In this document: one piece after another, positions 3,500 through 51,520 of the stretch | Layout of the letters: each line of letters starts with the position of its first letter | Numbering within the stretch: the stretch's first letter is position 1 | Origin: Rhodoferax bucti | GTDB taxonomy: Bacteria; Pseudomonadota; Gammaproteobacteria; Burkholderiales; Burkholderiaceae_C | Length of the DNA stretch: 64,000 nucleotides | Direction of reading: 5' to 3' | Assembly: GCF_005876985.1 (NCBI RefSeq) | Contig: NZ_VAHD01000003.1 | Location: 248,001-312,000, forward strand | Program-made: the position numbers and the translations under genes | Notes under the pieces: generated by a model | Databases searched by the model: none | Seen by the model: the letters and a program-made list of their open reading frames with translations, nothing else | Told to the model about the DNA's origin: nothing

Positions 3500-5101
3500 T
3501 TAGAGGCTCGCCGCCAGCAATTTGCGGGTGTAAGGGTGGCTGGGCGTGTTGAATACCGCATCCAGCTCGCCGGATTCCACAATTGCACCGGACTGCATGA
3601 CCAGCACGCGGTGCGCCATGGCCTTGACGACGGCCACATCATGGGTGATCAGCAAATAGGCCAAGCCACGCTCCTGTTGCAGGCGCTGCAACAGGAGCAG
3701 CACCTGCTGAGCCATGGTGACGTCCAGCGCGCTGGTGGGTTCATCCAGCACCAACACCGCCGGCTCCAGCACCAAGGCGCGAGCAATCGCCAGACGCTGC
3801 CGCTGCCCGCCGGAAAACTGGTGGGGATAGCGCTGCAGGATGCCGGGAAACTGGGCCTGCCCCATACCAACCACCTCCAACACCTGCACGACACGCTCTT
3901 GCCGCTCACCGCGGGACAAGGTGGGCATGTGCACATCCAAGCCCTCGCCCACCAACTCTTCCACCGTGAGCCGGGGCGACAGAGAAGAGAAAGGATCCTG
4001 AAACACCACCTGCACCTGCTTGCGCAAAGACAGGTCACTCGCTGCACGCCCAGACCAGGATGCACCGCCAACGCGAACCAGCCCATCGTGCCGCACCAAC
4101 CCCAGAGCAGCCAATGCCAGCGAGGATTTGCCGGATCCGGACTCTCCGACCACCCCTACAGTCTCTCCTCGGTGCAAGCGAAAGTCTGCACCCTGCACAG
4201 CCACAAAGCGTCCGCTGGAAAACCAGCCACGCAGCCCCGGTTGGGGAATGGGGTACTCGACCCGTACCCCCCGGGCTTCCAGCAGCACCGGAGCGCCCGG
4301 GGCCGGAGCGCGCACATCCCGCACCGGCAGGCTGTCCAGCAACTGGCGGGTGTAGGCGTGTTGAGGGCGGGCAAATACTTCTGCCACTGCGCCCTGCTCC
4401 ACGATCACGCCCTGCTCCATCACCGCCACGCGGTCCGCGAACTTGCGTACCAGATGCAGGTCATGCGTGATCAGCAGTACGGCCATGCCTTTGCGTCGCT
4501 GCAAATCCGTCAACAGATCGAGAATCTGCTGCCGCACACTCACATCCAGCGCCGTGGTGGGCTCGTCCGCCAGCAGCAGCTTGGGCGCACACGCCAGCGC
4601 CATGGCGATCATGGCCCGCTGGCGCTGACCGCCCGACAACTGGTGCGGATAGGCCTTGGCCCGACGCGCTGGATCGTCCATGCCCGTCTCCGCTATCAAA
4701 TCAATAGCTGCTTGCGCAAATTCAGCGGGCGCTAGGCCCAGTTTTTCTTCCAAAACTTCTGCAATCTGTGCGCCGATGGTGAACACCGGGTTCAGCGCCG
4801 TCATCGGCTCCTGGAACACCATGGCAATGTCCTGCCCACGGATGCCCCGCAGTTGCCGCTCTGGTGCCGCCAACAGATCGAGCGGCCCGGCGCTGGAGGC
4901 AAAGTCGGCCTTGCCGCTCAAATGCGCACCCTGGGCCAGGCCCAGCAAACTCAGCGCGGTGATGGTTTTACCGGAGCCAGACTCACCCACCAAGGCCAAC
5001 TTCTCGCCGGCCCGGATGTCAAAACTCACGCCATGCACCACCTCGCGCCCGGCAAATGCGACCCGCAAGCTCTCTACCGTTAAAAGCGTGGTCGGGTTCA
5101 T
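3500..5101 (-). CDS. yejF: Peptide ABC transporter, duplicated ATP-binding protein YejF
   Basis: This cytoplasmic ATPase of the YejABEF oligopeptide importer holds two ABC modules in one 533-residue chain. Module 1 has Walker A GESGSGKT, signature LSGGQRQRAMIAMAL and Walker B LLLADEPT. Module 2 has GESGSGKSSLALAALG, FSGGQRQRLAIARAL and LVLDEPTSALD. The start at 5101 gives MNPTTLLTVESLRVAF, and its ATG overlaps the yejE stop (ATGA). A family A repeat (4704-4738) lies in frame in module 1 and encodes LAPAEFAQAAIDLI, a helical stretch where insertion has been tolerated. Confidence 0.95.
   Translation of the reverse strand: MNPTTLLTVESLRVAFAGREVVHGVSFDIRAGEKLALVGESGSGKTITALSLLGLAQGAHLSGKADFASSAGPLDLLAAPERQLRGIRGQDIAMVFQEPMTALNPVFTIGAQIAEVLEEKLGLAPAEFAQAAIDLIAETGMDDPARRAKAYPHQLSGGQRQRAMIAMALACAPKLLLADEPTTALDVSVRQQILDLLTDLQRRKGMAVLLITHDLHLVRKFADRVAVMEQGVIVEQGAVAEVFARPQHAYTRQLLDSLPVRDVRAPAPGAPVLLEARGVRVEYPIPQPGLRGWFSSGRFVAVQGADFRLHRGETVGVVGESGSGKSSLALAALGLVRHDGLVRVGGASWSGRAASDLSLRKQVQVVFQDPFSSLSPRLTVEELVGEGLDVHMPTLSRGERQERVVQVLEVVGMGQAQFPGILQRYPHQFSGGQRQRLAIARALVLEPAVLVLDEPTSALDVTMAQQVLLLLQRLQQERGLAYLLITHDVAVVKAMAHRVLVMQSGAIVESGELDAVFNTPSHPYTRKLLAASL
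4704..4738 (+). repeat. Family A short interspersed repeat, copy 1 (inside yejF)
   Basis: The copy reads ATAGCTGCTTGCGCA, then a short spacer, then GCGGGCGCTAGGCC, closely matching the other family A copies in the window. It is inside yejF on the opposite coding strand and keeps the frame open. Confidence 0.8.
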
Positions 5102-21024: not shown

Positions 21025-21057
21025 GACCAGAAGGTCTGCCCATTCACTATCATTTTT

Positions 21058-21093
21058 ATAGCTACTTGCGCATATTCCACGAGCGCTAGAGGC
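21058..21093 (+). repeat. Family A repeat, copy 3 (upstream of the PQQ dehydrogenase)
   Basis: ATAGCTACTTGCGCATATT, then CCACGAGCGCTAGAGGC, ending nine bases before the next start codon. It occupies the position where the ribosome-binding site would be expected. Confidence 0.8.
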
Positions 21094-21102
21094 ATATTTC
21101 AT

Positions 21103-22260
21103 ATGATTTTCACCCTGTCCCTCCCAGCACGGCGCGCCTCAGTGGCGGTGGGCCTCGCGCTATGTACCTGGGGCGTGCAGGCTGATGCGTTGCGCACCGA
21201 GACGGTGGCAAGCGGCCTGGAGCACCCCTGGGCCCTGGCCTTTTTGCCGGACGGCCAGTTTCTGGTGACCGAGCGGCCGGGCCGCCTGCGGGTGGTGGAT
21301 GCACAAGGCCGCGTGGGGCCGCCCATCCGCGGTGTGCCTGCCGTGGATGCGCGGGGCCAAGGAGGCTTGCTGGATGTGCTGCTGGACAGCGACTTTGCGC
21401 GCAACCGGCAACTCTACCTCTGCTACGCCGAGCCGGGCGCGGGCGGCAACAGCACCGCCATGGCCCGCGCACGCCTGAGCGAAGACACCCGCAGCCTCAC
21501 CGATGTGCAAGTCATTTTCAGCCAACAGCCCAAGGTAGCGAGTAACGCCCATTTCGGCTGCCGCATCGCCGAGGGCCAACGCCAAGGAGCCTCGGACGGT
21601 AGCCTGTACCTTGCACTGGGCGAACGCTTCAGCCGCAAAGACGACGCCCAGCGCCTGGACAACCACCATGGCAAGATGATCCGCATCCACAAAGACGGCG
21701 GCGTACCTACCGACAACCCTTTTGCCGGCGCCAGCACTCGCCCCGCCGGAGCCCGGCCAGAGATATGGAGCTACGGCCACCGCAACCCGCAAGGCTTGGT
21801 GCAGGCACCCGATGGCACTCTGTGGGAAATCGAACATGGCCCCCAAGGTGGCGATGAAATCAACCTCCTGCAGGCCGGGCGCAACTATGGCTGGCCGGTG
21901 ATCACCTATGGGGAAAACTATGGCGGCGGCCCCATCGGCAGCGGCCTGACTGCGCAAGCGGGCATGGAGCAACCGCTGCACCACTGGACGCCCTCCATAG
22001 CCCCCTCGGGCATGGCCTTTGTCACCAGCGCCCGCTACGGCAAGGCATGGACGGGCAATCTGGTGGTGGGCTCCCTCAAATTCGGGTACCTGGCGCGCCT
22101 GGAGCTGAGTGCGCCGTTTGCCGGCACGATGCTGCGGGAAACCCGGCATCTGCAGTCCTTGGGCGAGCGGGTGCGCGATGTGCGCCAAGGCCCCGATGGC
22201 TGGCTGTACCTGCTCACCGACCAGGCACCCGGCCGCCTGCTGCGGGTGTTGCCGCGCTGA
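21103..22260 (+). CDS. PQQ-dependent aldose sugar dehydrogenase (YliI-like)
   Basis: A secreted six-bladed beta-propeller of the soluble glucose dehydrogenase/YliI family, 385 residues. A signal peptide with Arg-Arg and a hydrophobic core (RRASVAVGLALCTWGVQADA) leads into VASGLEHPWALAFLPDG. The PQQ/Ca-binding segments GHRNPQGLVQAPDGTLWEIE and HGPQGGDEINLLQAGRNYGW are characteristic. It oxidises aldoses in the periplasm. A family A repeat sits immediately before the start, and I see no strong ribosome-binding site. Confidence 0.9.
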   Translation: MIFTLSLPARRASVAVGLALCTWGVQADALRTETVASGLEHPWALAFLPDGQFLVTERPGRLRVVDAQGRVGPPIRGVPAVDARGQGGLLDVLLDSDFARNRQLYLCYAEPGAGGNSTAMARARLSEDTRSLTDVQVIFSQQPKVASNAHFGCRIAEGQRQGASDGSLYLALGERFSRKDDAQRLDNHHGKMIRIHKDGGVPTDNPFAGASTRPAGARPEIWSYGHRNPQGLVQAPDGTLWEIEHGPQGGDEINLLQAGRNYGWPVITYGENYGGGPIGSGLTAQAGMEQPLHHWTPSIAPSGMAFVTSARYGKAWTGNLVVGSLKFGYLARLELSAPFAGTMLRETRHLQSLGERVRDVRQGPDGWLYLLTDQAPGRLLRVLPR

Positions 22261-22368
22261 ACGGCGTCGGACGACGGTGTGCGGCGGTGAGCGGACGCTC
22301 CGGCACCACCGCCTTCACCGATTTGTCACTTGGCATGGTTGTAATCCGACCTTCGTTGGAGATAGACC

Positions 22369-22992
22369 ATGCAACTACTCAAAACCGACAAAGCACGGGC
22401 CGAATTGCAGGGTGGTAGCCGCACGCTGGGGCAGCGGGAGCGCACCATGCTCATCCTTGCCGATGGCAAAAACACCTTGCAGACGATCGACCACCTGTTC
22501 AACGGCCAAGCCCAGCAACTGGCCAGGCAGCTCATCGATACCGGCTACCTGGTCGGCCTGGACTTGAGCCGCCCCATCACGCTGCGCGAGCCGCTTGCAC
22601 CTGCGCGCCACGAGGTGCGTGCGCCCGCCAGCAGCCAGGAGGCCACGCGGAAAACGGAAGCCGGTAGCAAACTCAAACCACCCGCTGAGAGCGCGCCCAC
22701 GTTGACCGCGACGGTGGAGCCCGCGCCCCCCGTGGCCGCTGACAACTTCGAGGGCAAGCGCTCGCTGGCGACCACGCGCATGTTTTTGTTCGATATTTGC
22801 GAGCGCATGTTTGTGCGCCGCGACCCGGCGCGCGCCGAAGCGTTCCGCGAAGCACTGCGCAACGCCAAAGACCGCGAATCCATGCTGGCTGCAGCGCGCG
22901 ACATGATCAGCGCCGTGGAAGAAATTGCCGGCCACGAGCGGGCGGACTCCATCAGCGAGCGCATTGCCATGCTGCTACCGCCCGAGGGCTGA
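22369..22992 (+). CDS. Uncharacterised protein with N-terminal winged-helix-like region
   Basis: A 207-residue protein that I cannot assign. Residues 1-65 (RTLGQRERTMLILADGKNTL) look like the small alpha-helical domain found in some regulatory proteins of Burkholderiales. A Pro/Ala/Thr-rich linker covers about 80-125. A helical C-terminal part (FEGKRSLATTRMFLFDICER) ends in an amphipathic helix. GGAG stands seven bases before the ATG, so it is probably a real gene. It has no membrane segment or signal peptide. Its neighbours give no functional hint. Confidence 0.7.
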   Translation: MQLLKTDKARAELQGGSRTLGQRERTMLILADGKNTLQTIDHLFNGQAQQLARQLIDTGYLVGLDLSRPITLREPLAPARHEVRAPASSQEATRKTEAGSKLKPPAESAPTLTATVEPAPPVAADNFEGKRSLATTRMFLFDICERMFVRRDPARAEAFREALRNAKDRESMLAAARDMISAVEEIAGHERADSISERIAMLLPPEG

Positions 22993-23009
22993 GCTCTCAG
23001 GGAAGACAG

Positions 23010-26000
23010 CTAGCTCTGGATCTGCGCCCAGGCCTTGTCCAGCCGCTTCACACTCACCGGCTGGGGCGTGCGCAGCTCTTGGGCAAAGAAGCTGACGCGC
23101 AATTCTTCGAGCAACCAGCGGAACTCCTGCATGCGCTCATCGACCGCGCCTTTGCGCTCCGCCACCAGCCGCCAGTAGCGTTGCTCTTGCGGGCGCAGTT
23201 CGGTCAGGCGGGCAGCATCGCGGGCCGGGTCGGCACGGTATTTGTCCAGCCGCAGCGTGATGGCCTTGAGGTAGCGAGCCAGGTGTTGCAAGCGATCCCA
23301 GGGCGTGGCCTGCAAAAACTTCTTGGGAATCAGGCGGTTGATCTGCTGCTGGGCGTCACTCGTGGCATCCGGCGCGTTTTTGGTGTCCTTGATCTTGCGA
23401 GCAGCGGTGGCGTACTCCAGCAGGATCACACTCGCCATGCGGGCCACTTCGTTGGCGATCAGCGTCAGGCGCCCCCGCCCTTCTTCAATCCGCCGTTTGA
23501 AGGCGAATTCGTCGGTGGGCAGCGGGTCTAACAGGAAGGCTCGGTCCAGCGCCACCGCGATGATTTGCTCACGCAGCTCTTCCACGGTACCTCCGCCGCT
23601 TCCGTTGTCGGCCTTGCCCACGTTCATGTAGCTCACCGCCATTTTTTGCAGGTCCGGGATGTTCTTCTCGAGGTACTTGAGTGCGTCCTTGATCTGGATG
23701 GCAAACAGGCGGCGCAGGCCGGCGCGGTGTTTGGCGGCAGCTACTTCGGGTTCGTCAAACACTTCGACCGTGACCGAGTCTCCGGCATCTATGAGTGCTG
23801 GGAAGCCGATCAACGTTTGGCCGCCCTTGCGGATTTCCAGCAACTCGGGCAGCTCGCCGAAGGTCCAGGCGGTAAAGCGGCTATCGAGGATGCTTGGGGC
23901 GCTGTTTTTGGGCGTGTTGGCATTTGCTACGTTTTTTGTAGCTGCTTGCGCATTGTTGGCGGGCGCTGGGGCGCGGAATGACTGGGCGTTCTGCTCCGTG
24001 TCCTCCGACCGCTGCGCGGTCTCCCCCTTAACCTGCGCAGAACGCCCAGTCATCCCGCTTGCTCTAGCGCTGCTCTGTTCCTGGCTCGCAGTCTGGTTTT
24101 GGGCCAGCTTCAAGCTGGCTAGCGCTTGGAAGGCACCGCGGGCTTGGCTGCCGAGCTCGGCTTTCAATGCACCCAGGTTGCGGCCATGGCCCAACTGGCG
24201 GCCGTGTTCATCGACCACGCGGAAGTTCATGAAGAAGTGCGGGCTGAGCATGTCGACCTTGATGTCGGCTTTCACAATGTCCAGCGACGTGGCTTCCCGC
24301 ACCAGCTTGAGCACGGCTTCCACCAAGCCGCCAGTACCAAACTTCTCTGGCGCATTCAGGACTTCGGCGAACTTGGACGCAGTGTCGGGCAGCGGCACCA
24401 GGCGGCTGCGCGGGCGCTGGTGCAGGGTCTTCAGCAGGGCCTGCACCTTGTCCTTGAGCATGCCGGGCACCAACCATTCGCAGCGCTCGTCGTTCACCTG
24501 GTTCAGCACAAACAAGGGCACGGTCACGGTCAGGCCGTCGCGGGCATCGCCGGGTTCATGGAGGTAAGTTGCAGCACAGTCCACGCCACCCAAACGGATG
24601 GTTTTGGGGAACGACGCAGTCGTAATGCCTGCCGCCTCGTGGCGCATGAGCTCTTCGCGGGTCAGGCGAAGCAGCTTGCACGCATGAAGCTGGGTTGGCA
24701 GAGCGTTCTGCGCAGGTAAAGGAGGAGAGCCCGCAGGGCTCGGGGGACACGGAGCAGAGCGCTCTGCCAATCCAGCGCCCTCGTAGTACTGCGGCTTTTT
24801 GCTTTCCTCGCGGTACCAGCGCTCCAGGCTGTAGCCGCTGCACACATCGGCGGGCAATTGCTGGTCGTAAAAGGCGTAGATCAGCTCGTCATCTACCAGC
24901 ACGTCCTGGCGGCGGGCTTTGTGCTCCAGTTCTTCGACTTGTTTGATGAGCTTGTGATTGGCGGCCAGAAAGGGCAGCGTGGTTTCCCATTCTTTGCCGA
25001 CCAGCGCTTCACGGATGAAGATTTCCCGCGCGCCGGCCATGTCCACACGGCTGTAGTTCACGCGCCGGCCGCTGTAGACCACGATGCCGTAGAGCGTGGC
25101 CCGCTCCAGCGCCACGACCTCGGCGGCTTTCTTTTCCCAATGCGGGTCCAGCAGCTGTTTCTTGAGCAGATGGCCGCCTACTTGCTCTAGCCATTGGGGC
25201 TCTATGGCGGCGATGCCGCGGCCGAACAGGCGCGTGGTTTCCACTAGCTCGCTTGCGACGATCCATTTGCCCGGTTTTTTGGTCAGGTGGGCGCCGGGGT
25301 GGGCAAAAAACTTGATGCTGCGTGCGCCCAGATATTCACCGTTTTGGCCTTCTTCGAGCTTGCAGCCCACGTTGCCCAGCAGGCCGGACAGCATGGACAG
25401 GTGCAGCTGCTCATAGCTGGCGGGCTTGGTATTCAGGCGCCATTTGTGTTCGGCCACTACGGTGTGGAGTTGGGTGTAAATGTCTTTCCACTCGCGCACG
25501 CGGCGGATGTTGACGAAGTTTTGGCGCAGGAGTTGTTCGTATTGGCGGTTGCTTAACTTGTGCGTATTTGCGCTCGCTGGTAGTTGGGGGCGGCGCACGC
25601 TCTGCTCCGTGTCCCCCGCCCGCTGCGCGGGCTCCTCCTTGACCTGCGCAGAACGTGCGCCGCCCCCAACTCCCGGGGCGGCGGGTGAGGCGCCGCCACG
25701 TGCGTCGTGAATCCACTTCCATAGCTTCAGGTAGCCAGTGAACTCGCTCTTTTCATCGTCAAACTTTTGATGCGCTTGGTCCGCCTGTTGCTGGGCCTCC
25801 ATGGGTCGGTCACGGACGTCTTGCACGCTCAAGGCGCTGGCAATCACCAGCGCTTCGTCCAAGGCCTCGCGGCCACGGGCTTCCAGCAGCATGCGGCCTA
25901 CGCGCGGATCCAATGGGAGGCGGCTGAGTTCCTGGCCCAAAGGCGTCAGTTCATTCGCATCGTCCACGGCCCCCAACTCATTGAGCAGCTGGTAACCATC

Positions 26001-27326
26001 GGCAATGGCACGGCCGCTGGGGCGCTCCAAAAACGGGAAATCTTCCACGATGCCCAGATGCAGCGACTTCATGCGCAGGATGACGCCTGCCAGCGAGGAC
26101 CTCAATATTTCCGGGTCGGTAAAGCGCGGGCGACCGTCAAAGTCTTTTTGGTCGTACAGGCGTATGCAGATACCGTTGGCCACGCGCCCGCAACGGCCGG
26201 CGCGCTGGTTGGCTGCTGCCTGGCTGATGGGCTCTACCAGCAGCTGCTCCACTTTGCTGCGGAAACTGTAGCGCTTCACGCGTGCTGTACCTGCGTCAAT
26301 GACGTATCGGGTGCCTGGCACCGTAAGCGAGGTTTCCGCCACGTTGGTGGCCAGTACGATGCGACGGCCGGTGTGGCCGTCAAAAATGCGGTCCTGTTCC
26401 GCCGGGCTCAGGCGGGCAAACAGGGGCAGCACTTCGGCATTGCGCATGACCGGCTGGTGGCTCAAGTGTTTACGCAGGTGGTCGGCTGCCTCGCGGATTT
26501 CGCGCTCGCCGGGCAGAAAGACCAGGATGTCGCCTTGGTTATGCGGGTCGCGCCACAGCTCATCCACCCCATCGGCAATGGCGTTGTTCAGGTCGTACTC
26601 GCGGCTTTCTTCAAACGGGCGGTAGCGCTGCTCCACCGGGAACATGCGGCCGGACACAAAAATCACCGGCGCTGGCGTCAAAGGCCCCCAGGCTCCGCCG
26701 CTTTGCGGGTCGCTGCCCCCCGAGGGGGCGTCGCCCGGCTTGGGGCGGCCCAGCGCCGGTCGGCTCGCAAAATGATCCGCAAAGCGCTGCGCATCGATCG
26801 TGGCCGAGGTGACGATGATCTTCAGGTCCGGGCGGCGCGGCAGGATCTGGCGCAGGTAACCCAGTAAGAAGTCGATGTTGAGCGAGCGCTCATGCGCCTC
26901 GTCGATGATGATGGTGTCGTAGGCGTTGAGTAGCGGGTCGGTCTGCGTCTCGGCCAGCAAAATACCGTCCGTCATCAGCTTGACCGAAGCGTCTTTGCCC
27001 AGCCGGTCGTTAAAGCGCACCTTGTAGCCCACTACATCGCCCAGTGGCGTTTTCAGCTCTTCGGCAATGCGCTTGGCCACGCTGCTGGCCGCAATGCGGC
27101 GGGGCTGGGTGTGGCCGATGAGCTTGCCGCGCTGGCCCGCCGGGTAATTCAACTTGCCGCGGCCCATGGCGAGCGCGATTTTGGGCAGCTGGGTGGTCTT
27201 GCCCGAGCCGGTTTCCCCGCAGACGATGACCACTTGGTGCGCCGCAATGGCGTCCATGATTTCGTCGCGTTTGCCCGACACCGGGAGCGACTCTGGGAAT
27301 TCGATTTGCAAGGGGCTGGCAGTCAA
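23010..27326 (-). CDS. hrpA: ATP-dependent RNA helicase HrpA, with repeat insertions
   Basis: A DEAH-box helicase of 1438 residues, about 140 longer than E. coli HrpA. Walker A is GETGSGKTTQLPK (near residue 37), the DEAH box is IIIDEAHERSLN, motif III is ATIDAQRF, and motif VI is QRAGRCGR. The C-terminal DUF3418 region follows. The start is TTG 27326: a stop lies just upstream, and the first ATG (residue 24) would cut into conserved sequence. The extra length comes from in-frame repeats at residues about 188-211, 552-582, 852-879, 1091-1118 and 1119-1130. The first lies between motif III and the conserved VSGRMFPVE. The frame is intact and the gene is probably functional. Confidence 0.93.
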   Translation of the reverse strand: MTASPLQIEFPESLPVSGKRDEIMDAIAAHQVVIVCGETGSGKTTQLPKIALAMGRGKLNYPAGQRGKLIGHTQPRRIAASSVAKRIAEELKTPLGDVVGYKVRFNDRLGKDASVKLMTDGILLAETQTDPLLNAYDTIIIDEAHERSLNIDFLLGYLRQILPRRPDLKIIVTSATIDAQRFADHFASRPALGRPKPGDAPSGGSDPQSGGAWGPLTPAPVIFVSGRMFPVEQRYRPFEESREYDLNNAIADGVDELWRDPHNQGDILVFLPGEREIREAADHLRKHLSHQPVMRNAEVLPLFARLSPAEQDRIFDGHTGRRIVLATNVAETSLTVPGTRYVIDAGTARVKRYSFRSKVEQLLVEPISQAAANQRAGRCGRVANGICIRLYDQKDFDGRPRFTDPEILRSSLAGVILRMKSLHLGIVEDFPFLERPSGRAIADGYQLLNELGAVDDANELTPLGQELSRLPLDPRVGRMLLEARGREALDEALVIASALSVQDVRDRPMEAQQQADQAHQKFDDEKSEFTGYLKLWKWIHDARGGASPAAPGVGGGARSAQVKEEPAQRAGDTEQSVRRPQLPASANTHKLSNRQYEQLLRQNFVNIRRVREWKDIYTQLHTVVAEHKWRLNTKPASYEQLHLSMLSGLLGNVGCKLEEGQNGEYLGARSIKFFAHPGAHLTKKPGKWIVASELVETTRLFGRGIAAIEPQWLEQVGGHLLKKQLLDPHWEKKAAEVVALERATLYGIVVYSGRRVNYSRVDMAGAREIFIREALVGKEWETTLPFLAANHKLIKQVEELEHKARRQDVLVDDELIYAFYDQQLPADVCSGYSLERWYREESKKPQYYEGAGLAERSAPCPPSPAGSPPLPAQNALPTQLHACKLLRLTREELMRHEAAGITTASFPKTIRLGGVDCAATYLHEPGDARDGLTVTVPLFVLNQVNDERCEWLVPGMLKDKVQALLKTLHQRPRSRLVPLPDTASKFAEVLNAPEKFGTGGLVEAVLKLVREATSLDIVKADIKVDMLSPHFFMNFRVVDEHGRQLGHGRNLGALKAELGSQARGAFQALASLKLAQNQTASQEQSSARASGMTGRSAQVKGETAQRSEDTEQNAQSFRAPAPANNAQAATKNVANANTPKNSAPSILDSRFTAWTFGELPELLEIRKGGQTLIGFPALIDAGDSVTVEVFDEPEVAAAKHRAGLRRLFAIQIKDALKYLEKNIPDLQKMAVSYMNVGKADNGSGGGTVEELREQIIAVALDRAFLLDPLPTDEFAFKRRIEEGRGRLTLIANEVARMASVILLEYATAARKIKDTKNAPDATSDAQQQINRLIPKKFLQATPWDRLQHLARYLKAITLRLDKYRADPARDAARLTELRPQEQRYWRLVAERKGAVDERMQEFRWLLEELRVSFFAQELRTPQPVSVKRLDKAWAQIQS
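23938..23972 (+). repeat. Family A repeat, copy 4 (inside hrpA)
   Basis: GTAGCTGCTTGCGCA followed by GGCGGGCGCTGGGGC, a slightly degenerate family A copy. On the hrpA strand it encodes APANNAQAATK in a low-complexity linker and abuts family B copy 1. Confidence 0.7.
23975..24056 (+). repeat. Family B element, copy 1 (inside hrpA)
   Basis: A 44-nt core (23994-24037) is flanked by 19-bp inverted arms, 23975-23993 and 24038-24056, matching at 18 of 19 positions. The arm sequence contains GACTGGGCGTTCTG. The core includes a small inner palindrome, GACCGC/GCGGTC. On the hrpA strand it encodes RSAQVKGETAQRSEDTEQ in frame. Confidence 0.85.
24692..24773 (-). repeat. Family B element, copy 2, inverted (inside hrpA)
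   Basis: The same 44-nt core in the opposite orientation (24711-24754) lies between arms 24692-24710 and 24755-24773 that match at 17 of 19 positions. The arm sequence contains TTGGCAGAGCG, different from copies 1 and 3. Read through in hrpA it gives ERSAPCPPSPAGSPPLPAQN, still without a stop. Confidence 0.85.
25582..25671 (+). repeat. Family B element, copy 3 (inside hrpA)
   Basis: The 44-nt core (25605-25648) lies between 23-bp arms 25582-25604 and 25649-25671 that match at 22 of 23 positions. The arm contains GTTGGGGGCGGCGCACG, specific to this copy. On the hrpA strand it encodes RSAQVKEEPAQRAGDTEQ, nearly the same peptide as copy 1. Confidence 0.85.
26696..26763. repeat. Family C-related GC-rich hairpin inside the hrpA core
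   Basis: Contains GCCCCCCGAGGGGGC and GGGGCGGCCCAGCGCCGG, related to the GC hairpin clusters at 19745 and 62881. It encodes an inserted segment (GRPKPGDAPSGGSDPQSGG) between the DHFASR and VSGRMFPVE parts of the helicase, where E. coli HrpA has no such insertion. Confidence 0.6.
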
Positions 27327-27398
27327 GGCGTGGTCTTCGTAGAGAATTGCGGATTATCCCAGTCCTGACAAACCCTTACCGGCCTCCCCCGCCCCTCA

Positions 27399-28748
27399 AT
27401 GACTTCTGTCTTCAACTTCACCTTTGTGCCCTGGTTCCGTTCGGTTGCGCCGTACATCCACAAGTTCCGCAACCAGACCTTTGTGGTGGGCATTGCCGGT
27501 GAAGCAATTGCGGCGGGCAAGCTGCCGCACTTGGCCCAGGACCTGGCCATGATCCAGAGCATGGGCGTGAAGATTGTGCTGGTGCACGGCTTCCGGCCGC
27601 AGGTCAATGAGCAGCTATTGGCCAAGGGCCACACCCCCAAATACAGCCACGGTATCCGCATCACCGACGAAGTGGCGCTGGACTGCGCGCAAGAGGCTGC
27701 CGGCCAGCTGCGTTACGAAATTGAGGCCGCTTTCAGCCAAGGGCTGCCCAACACGCCCATGGCGGACTCCACGGTACGGGTGATTTCGGGCAACTTCATC
27801 ACCGCGCGCCCGGTGGGCATTGTGGATGGCGTGGACTTCCAGCACAGCGGTCTGGTGCGCAAGGTGGACATTGCCGGCATCACCAAAACCCTGGACATGG
27901 GCGCCATGGTGCTACTGTCCCCTTTCGGTTTTTCACCCACCGGCGAGGCCTTCAACCTGACCATGGAAGAAGTGGCGACCAGTGTGGCCACAGCCCTGCA
28001 GGCGGACAAGCTGATCTTTTTGACCGAGGTGCCCGGCATCCGCATGGACCCAACGCAGCCCGCCAGTGAAGACAACCCGATTGACACCGAGCTGCCGCTG
28101 GCTGCGGCTGAAAAACTGCTCAAGGAGCTACCAGCAGCCAACCAACCCACCGACGTTGCGTTCTACCTGCAGCACTGTGTCAAGGCGTGCAAAAACGGCG
28201 TGGAGCGCAGCCACATCATCCCGTTTGCGGTGGATGGCGCGATCCTGCTGGAGGTGTATGTGCACGACGGTATCGGCACCATGGTGGTGGACGAAAAGCT
28301 CGAAGAGCTGCGTGAAGCCACCGAGGAAGACGTGGGCGGCATCCTGCAACTGATTGAGCCCTTTGAGAAAGATGGCACGCTGGTCAAGCGCAGCCGCACC
28401 GAAATCGAGCGGGACGCCGGCAACTACACCATCATCGAGCACGACGGCGTCATCTTTGCCTGCGCAGCGCTCTACCCCTACCCGGAAGCCAAAACGGCCG
28501 AAATGGCAGCCCTCACCGTGTCACCCGATGTGCAAGGCCAGGGCGACGGCGAGCGCGTATTGAAGCGCGTGGAGCAACGCGCCAAGGCAGCCGGGCTGGA
28601 CAGCATTTTTGTGCTGACCACACGGACCATGCACTGGTTCATCAAGCGCGGTTTTGTGCAGGTGGACCCGGACTGGCTGCCGGAAGCCCGCAAGCGCAAA
28701 TACAACTGGGACCGCAAGAGTCAAGTGCTGGTCAAGAAGCTGAGCTGA
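27399..28748 (+). CDS. argA: Amino-acid N-acetyltransferase (N-acetylglutamate synthase)
   Basis: ArgA makes N-acetylglutamate, the first step of arginine synthesis. The 449-residue protein has an N-terminal amino-acid-kinase-like domain (FVVGIAGEAIAAGKLPHLAQ) that usually binds arginine as feedback inhibitor. The C-terminal GNAT domain has the acetyl-CoA loop in VSPDVQGQGDGERVLKRVE. The length equals classical two-domain ArgA (about 443). It is divergent from hrpA and convergent with dsbB. The substitution of Asp for the usual Gly/Arg in QGQGDGERVL is a small oddity in the CoA loop. Confidence 0.95.
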   Translation: MTSVFNFTFVPWFRSVAPYIHKFRNQTFVVGIAGEAIAAGKLPHLAQDLAMIQSMGVKIVLVHGFRPQVNEQLLAKGHTPKYSHGIRITDEVALDCAQEAAGQLRYEIEAAFSQGLPNTPMADSTVRVISGNFITARPVGIVDGVDFQHSGLVRKVDIAGITKTLDMGAMVLLSPFGFSPTGEAFNLTMEEVATSVATALQADKLIFLTEVPGIRMDPTQPASEDNPIDTELPLAAAEKLLKELPAANQPTDVAFYLQHCVKACKNGVERSHIIPFAVDGAILLEVYVHDGIGTMVVDEKLEELREATEEDVGGILQLIEPFEKDGTLVKRSRTEIERDAGNYTIIEHDGVIFACAALYPYPEAKTAEMAALTVSPDVQGQGDGERVLKRVEQRAKAAGLDSIFVLTTRTMHWFIKRGFVQVDPDWLPEARKRKYNWDRKSQVLVKKLS

Positions 28749-47979: not shown

Positions 47980-48007
47980 AGCCCGGACGCAGAAAGAGAG
48001 AATTACT

Positions 48008-48421
48008 ATGAAATTGATAGCTGCTTCCGCACATTCCACGGGCGCTGAAGGCCAAAAAGTCATTGAACTGGCCAACACCGAAGACCCCCGCGCACTCGAT
48101 CTGGCCGGCGTGACCCGCATCGACCTGAACTTCCCCAAGTTCACCGACGGCCGCGCGTACAGCCAGGCCTTTTTGCTGCGCCGCCGCCTGGGCTTCACCG
48201 GCGAGCTGCGTGCTACTGGTGACGTGCTGATCGACCAGCTGGTGCAAATGGAACGCACAGGTTTTGACGTGGCCGTGCTGCGCGCCGACCAGAACATCGA
48301 CTTCGCACAGCGCCAGTTCGACCGTTATCGCGGTTTCTACCAAGGCGACGCAGTCACTGTGAAGCCTCACTTCGCCCGCGAGGGCGATTCCGTTGCGGCC
48401 CGTGAAGGAGAGGCGGCATGA
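48008..48421 (+). CDS. DUF934 protein of the sulfate assimilation operon
   Basis: A 137-residue protein that consistently accompanies cysI and cysH in betaproteobacteria and pseudomonads; its biochemical role is not established. The conserved part is DLAGVTRIDLNFPKFTDGRA, YSQAFLLRRRLGFTGELRAT and GDVLIDQLVQMERTGFDVAV. AGAGAG precedes ATG 48008. The first 15 or so residues (MKLIAASAHSTGAEGQK) come from a family A repeat, so the N-terminus is probably dispensable. It overlaps cysH by 4 bases. It may help sulfite reductase or electron supply. Confidence 0.88.
   Translation: MKLIAASAHSTGAEGQKVIELANTEDPRALDLAGVTRIDLNFPKFTDGRAYSQAFLLRRRLGFTGELRATGDVLIDQLVQMERTGFDVAVLRADQNIDFAQRQFDRYRGFYQGDAVTVKPHFAREGDSVAAREGEAA
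48017..48053 (+). repeat. Family A repeat, copy 6 (5' end of the DUF934 gene)
   Basis: ATAGCTGCTTCCGCACATT, then CCACGGGCGCTGAAGGCC, beginning nine bases inside the gene. It encodes IAASAHSTGAEGQ, nearly the same peptide as the cysN copy. Confidence 0.8.
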
Positions 48422-50147: not shown

Positions 50148-51520
50148 TGACCGCTATGAATACGATAGCTGCTCCCGCAAATTCCACGGGCGCTAGCAGC
50201 CAAAATGACACTTCATCCGCCCTGCGCTTCATCACCTGCGGCAGCGTGGACGATGGCAAGAGCACCTTGATCGGCCGCCTGTTGGTGGACAGCAAGGCGG
50301 TGCTGCAAGACCAGCTGGCCAACGTTTCCAAGAGCGGCGAAGCTGACTTGGCTCTGTTCACCGATGGCCTCTCCGCTGAGCGCGAGCAAGGTATCACCAT
50401 CGACGTGGCCTACCGCTACTTCGCCACCCCCACGCGCAAGTTCATCATTGGTGACGCACCCGGCCACGAGCAGTACACCCGCAACATGGTCACTGCTGCC
50501 AGCAGCGCGCATGCCGCTGTTGTGCTGGTGGACGCCACCAAACTGAAGTGGAATGTGGACGGCCTGGTGGACCTGCTGCCCCAGACCCGCCGCCACAGCC
50601 TGCTGGTCAACCTGCTACGCGTGCCCGGCATCATCTTTGCCGTGAACAAGCTCGACGCCTTGGGCGATGACGCCGCGGCTGCGTTCGCCAAGATCAGCGC
50701 GGCGCTGCAAGCCTTTGCAAAGCAAGCCGGCATTGCCGTGACAGCCACCATCCCCATGTCCGCCCTCAAGGGCCACAACGTGGTGGAAGCCACGCCCGGC
50801 TGGTGCGGCTACCAAGGCCCTAGCCTGTTGGCCTTGTTAGAAACACTGCCTGTCACCGCAGCCGAGACCGATGTGCCCTTCGCCTTCCCGGTGCAATGGG
50901 TAGAAAAGTTCCACAACTCTGCCGACACTACCCAAGGCCGCCGCGTGTTCTGGGGCCGTGTGGCCACTGGCACCGTGCAGGTGGGCGACACCATCAGCAT
51001 CCACCCCAGCGGCCAGACCGCGGTGGTGGCACAGGTTGTGAACCACGCCCGCGTGCCCGGCAGCATTGCCGCAGGCCACGGCGCCGGCATCACGCTGGAC
51101 CGCGAAGTGGATGTGTCCCGTGGCGACTGGCTGCTGGCGCAAGTCACGCCTGCAGCAGACCCGGACGACGAGTTTGCGGATACCCCCAAGCCCCGCGCTT
51201 TTGCCGAAGCCACCCGCGAAATCAAGGCCACTGTGGCCTGGATGGACGATGAGCCTCTGGTTGCCGGTCGCGTCTACCTGGCCCTGCATGGCCACCGCTG
51301 GATCAAAGCCAAGGTCAAGCGCATCGTGCACAGCTTGGACATCAACACCCTGCAGGAACACGACGCCACCGAGATTGCGCCCAACGCCATCGGCCATATT
51401 GAGCTCACGCTGCAGGAGGCAATTACCGCGGTTCCCTACGCGCAAAGCCGTGTGCTGGGCTCGCTGATTCTGGTGGACACTGCTACCCACAAGACCTCCG
51501 GTGCCCTGCTGCTGAATTGA
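50147..51520 (+). CDS. cysN: Sulfate adenylyltransferase subunit 1 (GTPase)
   Basis: The GTPase subunit that drives sulfate activation with CysD, 457 residues. G1 is GSVDDGKSTLIGRLL, G2/G3 region EREQGITIDVAYRYF and DAPGHEQYTRNMVTAA, G4 NKLD. It ends without an APS kinase domain, so it is CysN rather than the CysNC fusion. Residues 3-18 derive from a family A repeat (NTIAAPANSTGASSQN), an unusual extension before the first GTPase strand. A second ATG at 50156 would remove three residues. It is followed by a hairpin and fdxA. Confidence 0.95.
   Translation: MTAMNTIAAPANSTGASSQNDTSSALRFITCGSVDDGKSTLIGRLLVDSKAVLQDQLANVSKSGEADLALFTDGLSAEREQGITIDVAYRYFATPTRKFIIGDAPGHEQYTRNMVTAASSAHAAVVLVDATKLKWNVDGLVDLLPQTRRHSLLVNLLRVPGIIFAVNKLDALGDDAAAAFAKISAALQAFAKQAGIAVTATIPMSALKGHNVVEATPGWCGYQGPSLLALLETLPVTAAETDVPFAFPVQWVEKFHNSADTTQGRRVFWGRVATGTVQVGDTISIHPSGQTAVVAQVVNHARVPGSIAAGHGAGITLDREVDVSRGDWLLAQVTPAADPDDEFADTPKPRAFAEATREIKATVAWMDDEPLVAGRVYLALHGHRWIKAKVKRIVHSLDINTLQEHDATEIAPNAIGHIELTLQEAITAVPYAQSRVLGSLILVDTATHKTSGALLLN
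50165..50200 (+). repeat. Family A repeat, copy 7 (5' end of cysN)
   Basis: ATAGCTGCTCCCGCAAATT, then CCACGGGCGCTAGCAGC. It lies just inside cysN and encodes IAAPANSTGASS, matching the DUF934 copy in frame and in position relative to the start codon. Confidence 0.8.

Follow-up and report, generated by a model that had tools for sequence, protein, structure and literature searches.

Three near-palindromic stretches lie within one gene of the window, the 64,000-nt stretch of Rhodoferax bucti DNA that was analysed. Each has a 44-nt core of similar sequence between two inverted arms, and the arms look different in each copy. Do these arms belong to the element or to its host, and what keeps them paired? 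The original prediction of three 44-nt cores in hrpA, the middle one inverted, was reproduced at the positions listed here, and the open reading frame around them matches the HrpA family.

23010..27326, minus strand: host open reading frame, HrpA-type RNA helicase of 1438 aa (TIGR01967, DEAH_box_HrpA, above cut-off), which reads through all three copies
23973..23993, plus strand: copy 1, left outer arm with the CTG base; pairs with 24038-24058 (20/21)
23994..24037, plus strand: copy 1, core of 44 nt, pyrimidine strand; the purine strand is the minus strand, the sense strand of hrpA
24007..24021, plus strand: copy 1, inner hairpin GACCGC-TGC-GCGGTC; pairing counted over 28 copies
24038..24058, plus strand: copy 1, right outer arm
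24691..24710, minus strand: copy 2 (inverted), outer arm; pairs with 24755-24774 (18/20)
24711..24754, minus strand: copy 2, core of 44 nt; the purine strand is the plus strand, antisense to hrpA
24727..24741, minus strand: copy 2, inner hairpin; the plus strand reads GAGCCC-GCA-GGGCTC
24755..24774, minus strand: copy 2, second outer arm
25579..25604, plus strand: copy 3, left outer arm with the CTG base; pairs with 25649-25674 (24/26)
25605..25648, plus strand: copy 3, core of 44 nt
25618..25632, plus strand: copy 3, inner hairpin GCCCGC-TGC-GCGGGC
25649..25674, plus strand: copy 3, right outer arm

The near-perfect inverted arms were also recovered, with pairing of 20/21, 18/20 and 24/26 once the CTG/CAG base was included. 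Inside the core there is an inner hairpin, which had been overlooked at first. Its stem differs among the three copies and its pairing is retained. The window elements fold at z = -7.3 to -9.3 in five folds with 200 shuffles each (three folds on one strand and two also on the opposite strand). On the purine strand, the main type of the element is arm-CTGCGCAGGTNAAGGRGGAG-[hairpin]-CGGRGGACACGGAGCAG-arm.

Other repeats were seen in and around hrpA. A second dispersed repeat, CTATnnn..ATAGCTGCTTGCGCA..GGGCGCTAG, occurs in the window at 4693-4749, 21047-21103, 23927-23983, 48006-48062 and 50154-50210, together with inverted copies. One of these repeats adjoins copy 1 in hrpA, and similar short stretches are abundant in related genomes. 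A G+C-rich repeat-like stretch, GCTTTGCGGGTCGCTGCCCCCCGAGGGGGC...TTGGGGCGGCC, lies in hrpA at about 26680-26750 of the window, with similar stretches near loci L361 and L436. At the place of copy 3, L187 and L190 have the core flipped. Other palindromic families are present there in L196, L197, L203, L204 and L206 and in L201, L205 and L208, with a core GACGAAATTGAGC..GACGAGGAGCC and also AATTGGGGTCAGAGCCC..GGGATCCGACCCCAATT. Since different palindromic families occupy this place in other species, the hrpA linker is a hotspot shared by several hairpin repeats. The place of copy 2 has two very unlike element-free forms, one of 70 nt and one of 34 nt (L204 and L207 versus L184, L186 and L189). 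The two forms suggest that lineages may have exchanged segments of hrpA.

To see how far the family extends, the genome and its relatives were searched with the core, as had been suggested originally. The family is genome-wide and is present across related Comamonadaceae. The element is about 90-100 bp long and occurs in about 25-50 copies in many genomes of one Comamonadaceae group, including inside genes. In R. bucti itself, the core matches exactly at 10 places and covariance model R1 detects 27 copies; weaker R1 matches in this genome were the opposite strands of the same copies, one other hairpin family and one further place. The other hairpin family, GGCGACGATTTGGAGC-hairpin-GAGGAGCCC (L265, 1501-1581), is alike in architecture. 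In the genus of the window, 65 of the 80 sampled genomes have the element, with up to at least 51 copies per genome, 51 being the largest number of candidates scored in any one genome. A strict pattern was positive in 8 of 200 sampled genomes at family level, and strict filters gave matches in at least 7 of 300 genomes at order level, the own genome included, from three families. The purine strand of nine order-level loci, those from two other families included, retains the loop (A/G)GTNAAGGAGGAG / GGRGGACAYG. When named genomes were scanned with the exact core, at least 116 stretches matched. By record title, the matches listed come from Rhodoferax, Hydrogenophaga, Curvibacter, Hylemonella, Ideonella, Roseateles, Aquabacterium and others.

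A second subtype has the core GYTCGTG and other loop-closing bases, and often lies beside the main type (L260-L264, L325, L326, L344, L365, L383, L398 and L437). Some copies from other families of the order appear nearer to this subtype. Plasmid and phage collections gave no match with a 54-nt query. In the viral collection, IMGVR_UViG_3300024949_000020 (L438, 7367-7416) has a core near the edge of the fetched stretch.

To determine whose the arms are, we compared 119 full-arm copies, drawn from the listed named-genome matches and overlapping slightly with the six-genome set described below (at least two stretches from AP026970.1). The 20-nt 5′ arm has a mean pairwise identity of 0.539, compared with 0.322 (sd 0.0012) in within-arm shuffles. 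The arm consensus is near GGAGNCTGGGCGGCAGAGCGTT, with G at stem positions 3, 5, 7, 11, 14 and 15 in 92 to 116 of the 119 copies. The earlier statement that the outer arms are unrelated between copies thus holds by eye for the three copies of the window, but not over the 119 copies, which share a consensus. The arm ends are variable across these copies, a feature that was checked against the fixed terminal inverted repeats of the MITE type.

Element-free orthologous sites were compared to find an original arm. At six loci (20 comparisons, two of which used segments longer than 600 nt with a misplaced anchor), the best match to an 18-nt arm was 8-12/18 and never exceeded the 95th percentile of the background. 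The cleanest empty site is an fdhD-type locus, empty in four genomes and filled in two, where the FdhD family match is below cut-off (E 1e-31 to 1e-33). No target duplication is evident there by eye, and the flanks at this site have diverged. The filled versions of L347 and L255 hold extra flanking sequence beyond the element. The L232 site, empty in genome G219, contains a contiguous GATGGCTGG resembling the left arm, which could be the original sequence or a deletion scar.

The arm consensus across genera and the six empty sites, with no arm above background, indicate that the arms are part of the element rather than copies of host DNA. The original prediction offered the opposite model, in which a 44-nt core inserts and leaves an inverted duplicate of one adjacent flank. 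The locally unrelated arms of the three window copies would fit this model, and at the L232 site of G219 one arm could be original; against the shared consensus and the six empty sites, however, we consider it very improbable indeed. Host-flank copying as a general rule was rejected on the same two results.

The alternative raised at the outset, that a long outer stem is kept by compensatory change, fared better. Among 28 copies, both sides had changed in 24 of the 27 outer and in 4 of the 6 inner pairs, and the covariation score was 0.517 compared with 0.146 in 500 shuffles. To follow the same process in orthologues, we collected 113 regions from five related genomes and grouped 167 candidate copies of six genomes by their flanks. 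In total, 151 candidates fall into 40 orthologous groups, and no group has two members from one genome. Locus L370 yielded no candidate copy. One false hit (L434, 185-228) is among the 167 and is still counted in the grouping, rate, homogenisation and gene-context figures; it was removed (score limit 4) before the group-wise wobble test. Both arms had changed at 392 of 3,924 stem positions (10.0%), compared with 3.1% if changes were independent, or 3.2 times the expectation, which again supports compensatory change. Watson-Crick pairing was retained in 296 of these 392 double changes.

Rates were then compared over the aligned flanks, 27 core positions (three of them variable in the consensus) and 36 arm positions. 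In same-orientation orthologues (218 pairs, which are not independent), flanks, core and arms differ by 10.5%, 2.2% and 17.6%, respectively. In vertically inherited copies the core therefore changes at about one fifth of the rate of the aligned flanks. This figure may exaggerate the conservation, since the core itself served to find the copies, so that decayed cores are under-sampled, and since flank divergence comes from aligned parts only. Group by group, the core lags behind the flanks in all 40, whereas the arms outpace the flanks in only 25 of 40. In the 31 groups of copies not called in-gene, the values are 9.7%, 1.5% and 13.6%. Since the core is slow in these copies as well, protein coding does not explain its conservation. 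Gene conversion between copies is not supported as a cause either. Identity in the first core half is 0.70 among orthologues and 0.37 among non-orthologues, both within one genome and between genomes, so there is no genome-specific homogenisation.

The core is found in both orientations in 7 of the 40 groups. The clearest case is group 28, in which the arms are nearly identical; the arms of groups 6 and 10 differ greatly, so a separate insertion is possible there. Arms that invert with the core and arms that stay with the flank gave 382 and 402 mismatches, and the two alternatives are not separable. These flips, and several orthologues with many concerted arm changes, are what template switching predicts. 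They bear on the reading that the element is a purely selfish old palindrome with no host function, in which quasi-palindrome repair copies one arm onto the other. The arms, which on average diverge faster than the aligned flanks (17.6% versus 10.5%, in 25 of 40 groups), also agree with that reading. However, it leaves unexplained both the slow core in all 40 groups of old copies and the strand-specific wobble excess described below, and we judge it distinctly improbable. Repair of the arms might nevertheless operate together with selection.

Mismatches in the arms are not symmetrical between strands. When read on the purine strand, the ratio of G·T to A·C mismatches is 39:7 in in-gene sense copies, 6:0 in in-gene antisense copies, 64:9 in tandem sense copies and 47:7 in tandem antisense copies; a tie (7:7) occurs only in four copies of unknown context. 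Such mismatches occur in 47 groups or singletons, of which 43 have more G·T, 2 have more A·C and 2 have equal numbers. The G·T fraction is 0.86 compared with 0.61 (sd 0.012) after column shuffling, a baseline which means that part of the wobble excess is compositional. Among the listed named-genome matches the ratio is 141:21, and the bias reverses beyond the stem (positions 20-24). The G·T sites face G-C (180) and A-T (99) in orthologues, which argues against one-way cytosine deamination, and pure deamination is not supported as the source of the excess. The asymmetry is of the kind that selection on a folded purine strand would leave. By itself, it does not choose RNA over single-stranded DNA.

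Gene context was called with a codon-usage heuristic trained on the window. Tandem contexts include 45 sense and 39 antisense copies, whereas the in-gene copies are 36 sense and 6 antisense (7 groups or singletons sense-only, 2 antisense-only and 3 mixed). The orientation to genes is thus not fixed, which is awkward for a structure that acts in cis in mRNA and leaves room for single-stranded DNA. According to this alternative, the purine strand would fold when the duplex opens during replication, DNA uptake or transfer, and a DNA-binding protein or nicking transposase would recognise the fold. The wobble asymmetry, which tracks the strand of the core and not that of the gene, agrees with it, as does the lack of an orientation rule relative to tandem genes. 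Some triloops, including GCA and GAA, belong to a class that is very stable in DNA. Of the inner loops, GCA (49 copies) and GAA (25) are in this class, while AAA (43) and AAC (17) are outside it. Against single-stranded DNA stand the lean of in-gene copies towards purine-sense (36/42 copies; 7 versus 2 groups) and the lack of replication-strand bias in four genomes, whose origins were guesses based on skew or on where the contig begins. Nor is there an association between the element and Y1 transposase genes: Y1_Tnp matched in 73 of 80 genus genomes, drafts included, that is, in 60 of 65 genomes with copies (5 carriers had no match) and in 13 of 15 without. Selection on single-stranded DNA is possible, with the odds against it.

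The transposase result also bears on REP and REPIN sequences, which are short palindromic units mobilised by RAYT (Y1) transposases. The present element is likewise a short palindromic unit and forms 23 close pairs at 8 distinct sites in five relatives, with the pyrimidine-core copy first in 21 of the 23. These pairs often consist of one main copy and one GYTCGTG-subtype copy; the genes on either side share one strand for 17 of the pairs and converge for the other 6. Unlike REP and REPIN, its units are about 98 nt long, have a large conserved internal loop and include copies inside genes. Mobilisation by RAYT was rejected, as Y1_Tnp is not associated with the element among the 80 genus genomes.

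We next considered what the in-gene copies encode. The heuristic called 42 of the 167 candidates in-gene with an open frame. Most of them encode AQVKEEPAKRAGDTEQ or near variants, and the peptide has the form (S/F)AQVKEEPA(K/Q/T)RAGDTEQ or near variants. The AQVKEEP-type purine-sense frame is open in 35 of the 42 copies, alone in 26 and with a second frame in 9. Of the remaining copies, 1 has only another purine-sense frame and 6 are pyrimidine-sense.

Rickettsia palindromic elements (RPE) are described, in the parts of the sources used here, as being about 100-150 bp long, as lying between genes and in frame in unrelated genes, and as having a recurrent peptide and predicted stem-loops (PMC2229807, PMC10969869). 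The present element is like them in kind, as a palindrome that occupies intergenic DNA and also lies in frame inside genes, and it likewise has one preferred reading frame with a recurrent peptide (35/42). In comparison with RPE as described in these sources, its arms covary and differ in nearly every copy. By the same description, it also differs in its conserved two-sided internal loop, the wobble excess on one strand and the flips of the core. Coding palindromes of Nematomorpha mitochondria likewise retain paired arms within protein-coding genes, but the abstract describes no dispersed family with a common core, which the present element has (PMC6649704).

Rfam gave no match at the gathering score for window positions 22000-28000 and 12 loci, and matches below the cut-off were nearly all to microRNA hairpin models. 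In the open-access literature, outside which most subscription journals lie, one candidate description was found, the Beta-proteobacterial repeat element (BRE, Hot et al. 2011). The portions of PMC2864571 and PMC2800124 that were used contain no matching repeat. BRE is given in the part of PMC3110155 used here as about 90 bp (full-length Bordetella copies 75-91 bp) with a mean G+C of 69%, usually intergenic with some copies in coding sequences, and hosted by Polaromonas JS666 (29), Delftia (13), Rhodoferax ferrireducens (4) and Bordetella. Size, G+C, Comamonadaceae hosts and some coding-sequence copies agree with the present element when compared by this description. However, some BRE loci hold tandem copies with few or no bases between them, which is not seen here, and in the text "hairpin" is absent and "palindromic" occurs only in a reference title (PMC3110155). 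Identity with BRE is unlikely, and it can hold together with the explanation we prefer. If the two are the same, the repeat is already known, and its structure and selection are not described in that part of PMC3110155.

In summary, the element is a real, widespread, structured dispersed palindrome, its arms are element-borne and coevolve, and the loop is its conserved part. We put at roughly 55% the probability that it is a dispersed, protein-coding, RPE-like palindrome, with selection likely acting on the folding of its purine strand, probably in RNA form. The fold would combine a long stem with a small inner hairpin and an internal loop that is conserved and rich in purines. Selection would keep the fold rather than the arm sequence, so that the arms would diverge by compensatory change, and the loop would bind a host factor. 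The whole unit would have spread together with its arms, inserted by some mobiliser. Within genes, the unit would be tolerated in frame as a hydrophilic linker, as for Rickettsia palindromic elements. Inversion between the arms, by recombination or template switching, would account for the core flips.

The sequence AAGGAGG is complementary to the 3′ end of 16S rRNA. Because the loop contains AAGGAGG, a ribosome or a translation-linked partner is one candidate for the host factor. A more far-reaching reading, less likely than not, is an uncatalogued structured RNA motif whose stems covary freely around the purine internal loop AGGTNAAGGAGGAG/GGRGGACAYG, copied as a mobile palindrome to 25-50 sites per genome. 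Between genes it would function whichever way it points, inside genes it would do so in frame, and selection would keep it across families of Burkholderiales; its AAGGAGG loop would capture a dedicated RNA-binding protein or ribosomes.

Palindromes scattered through bacterial genomes are commonly regarded as selfish DNA. In this element, the vertically inherited copies combine a slow loop with coevolving stems and a wobble specific to one strand, which are the marks of a folded single strand under selection. With dozens of sites per genome, the element makes the old question of whether such repeats act directly testable. Its copies also offer a naturally preserved view of hairpin arms and inverted cores as they evolve at their sites.
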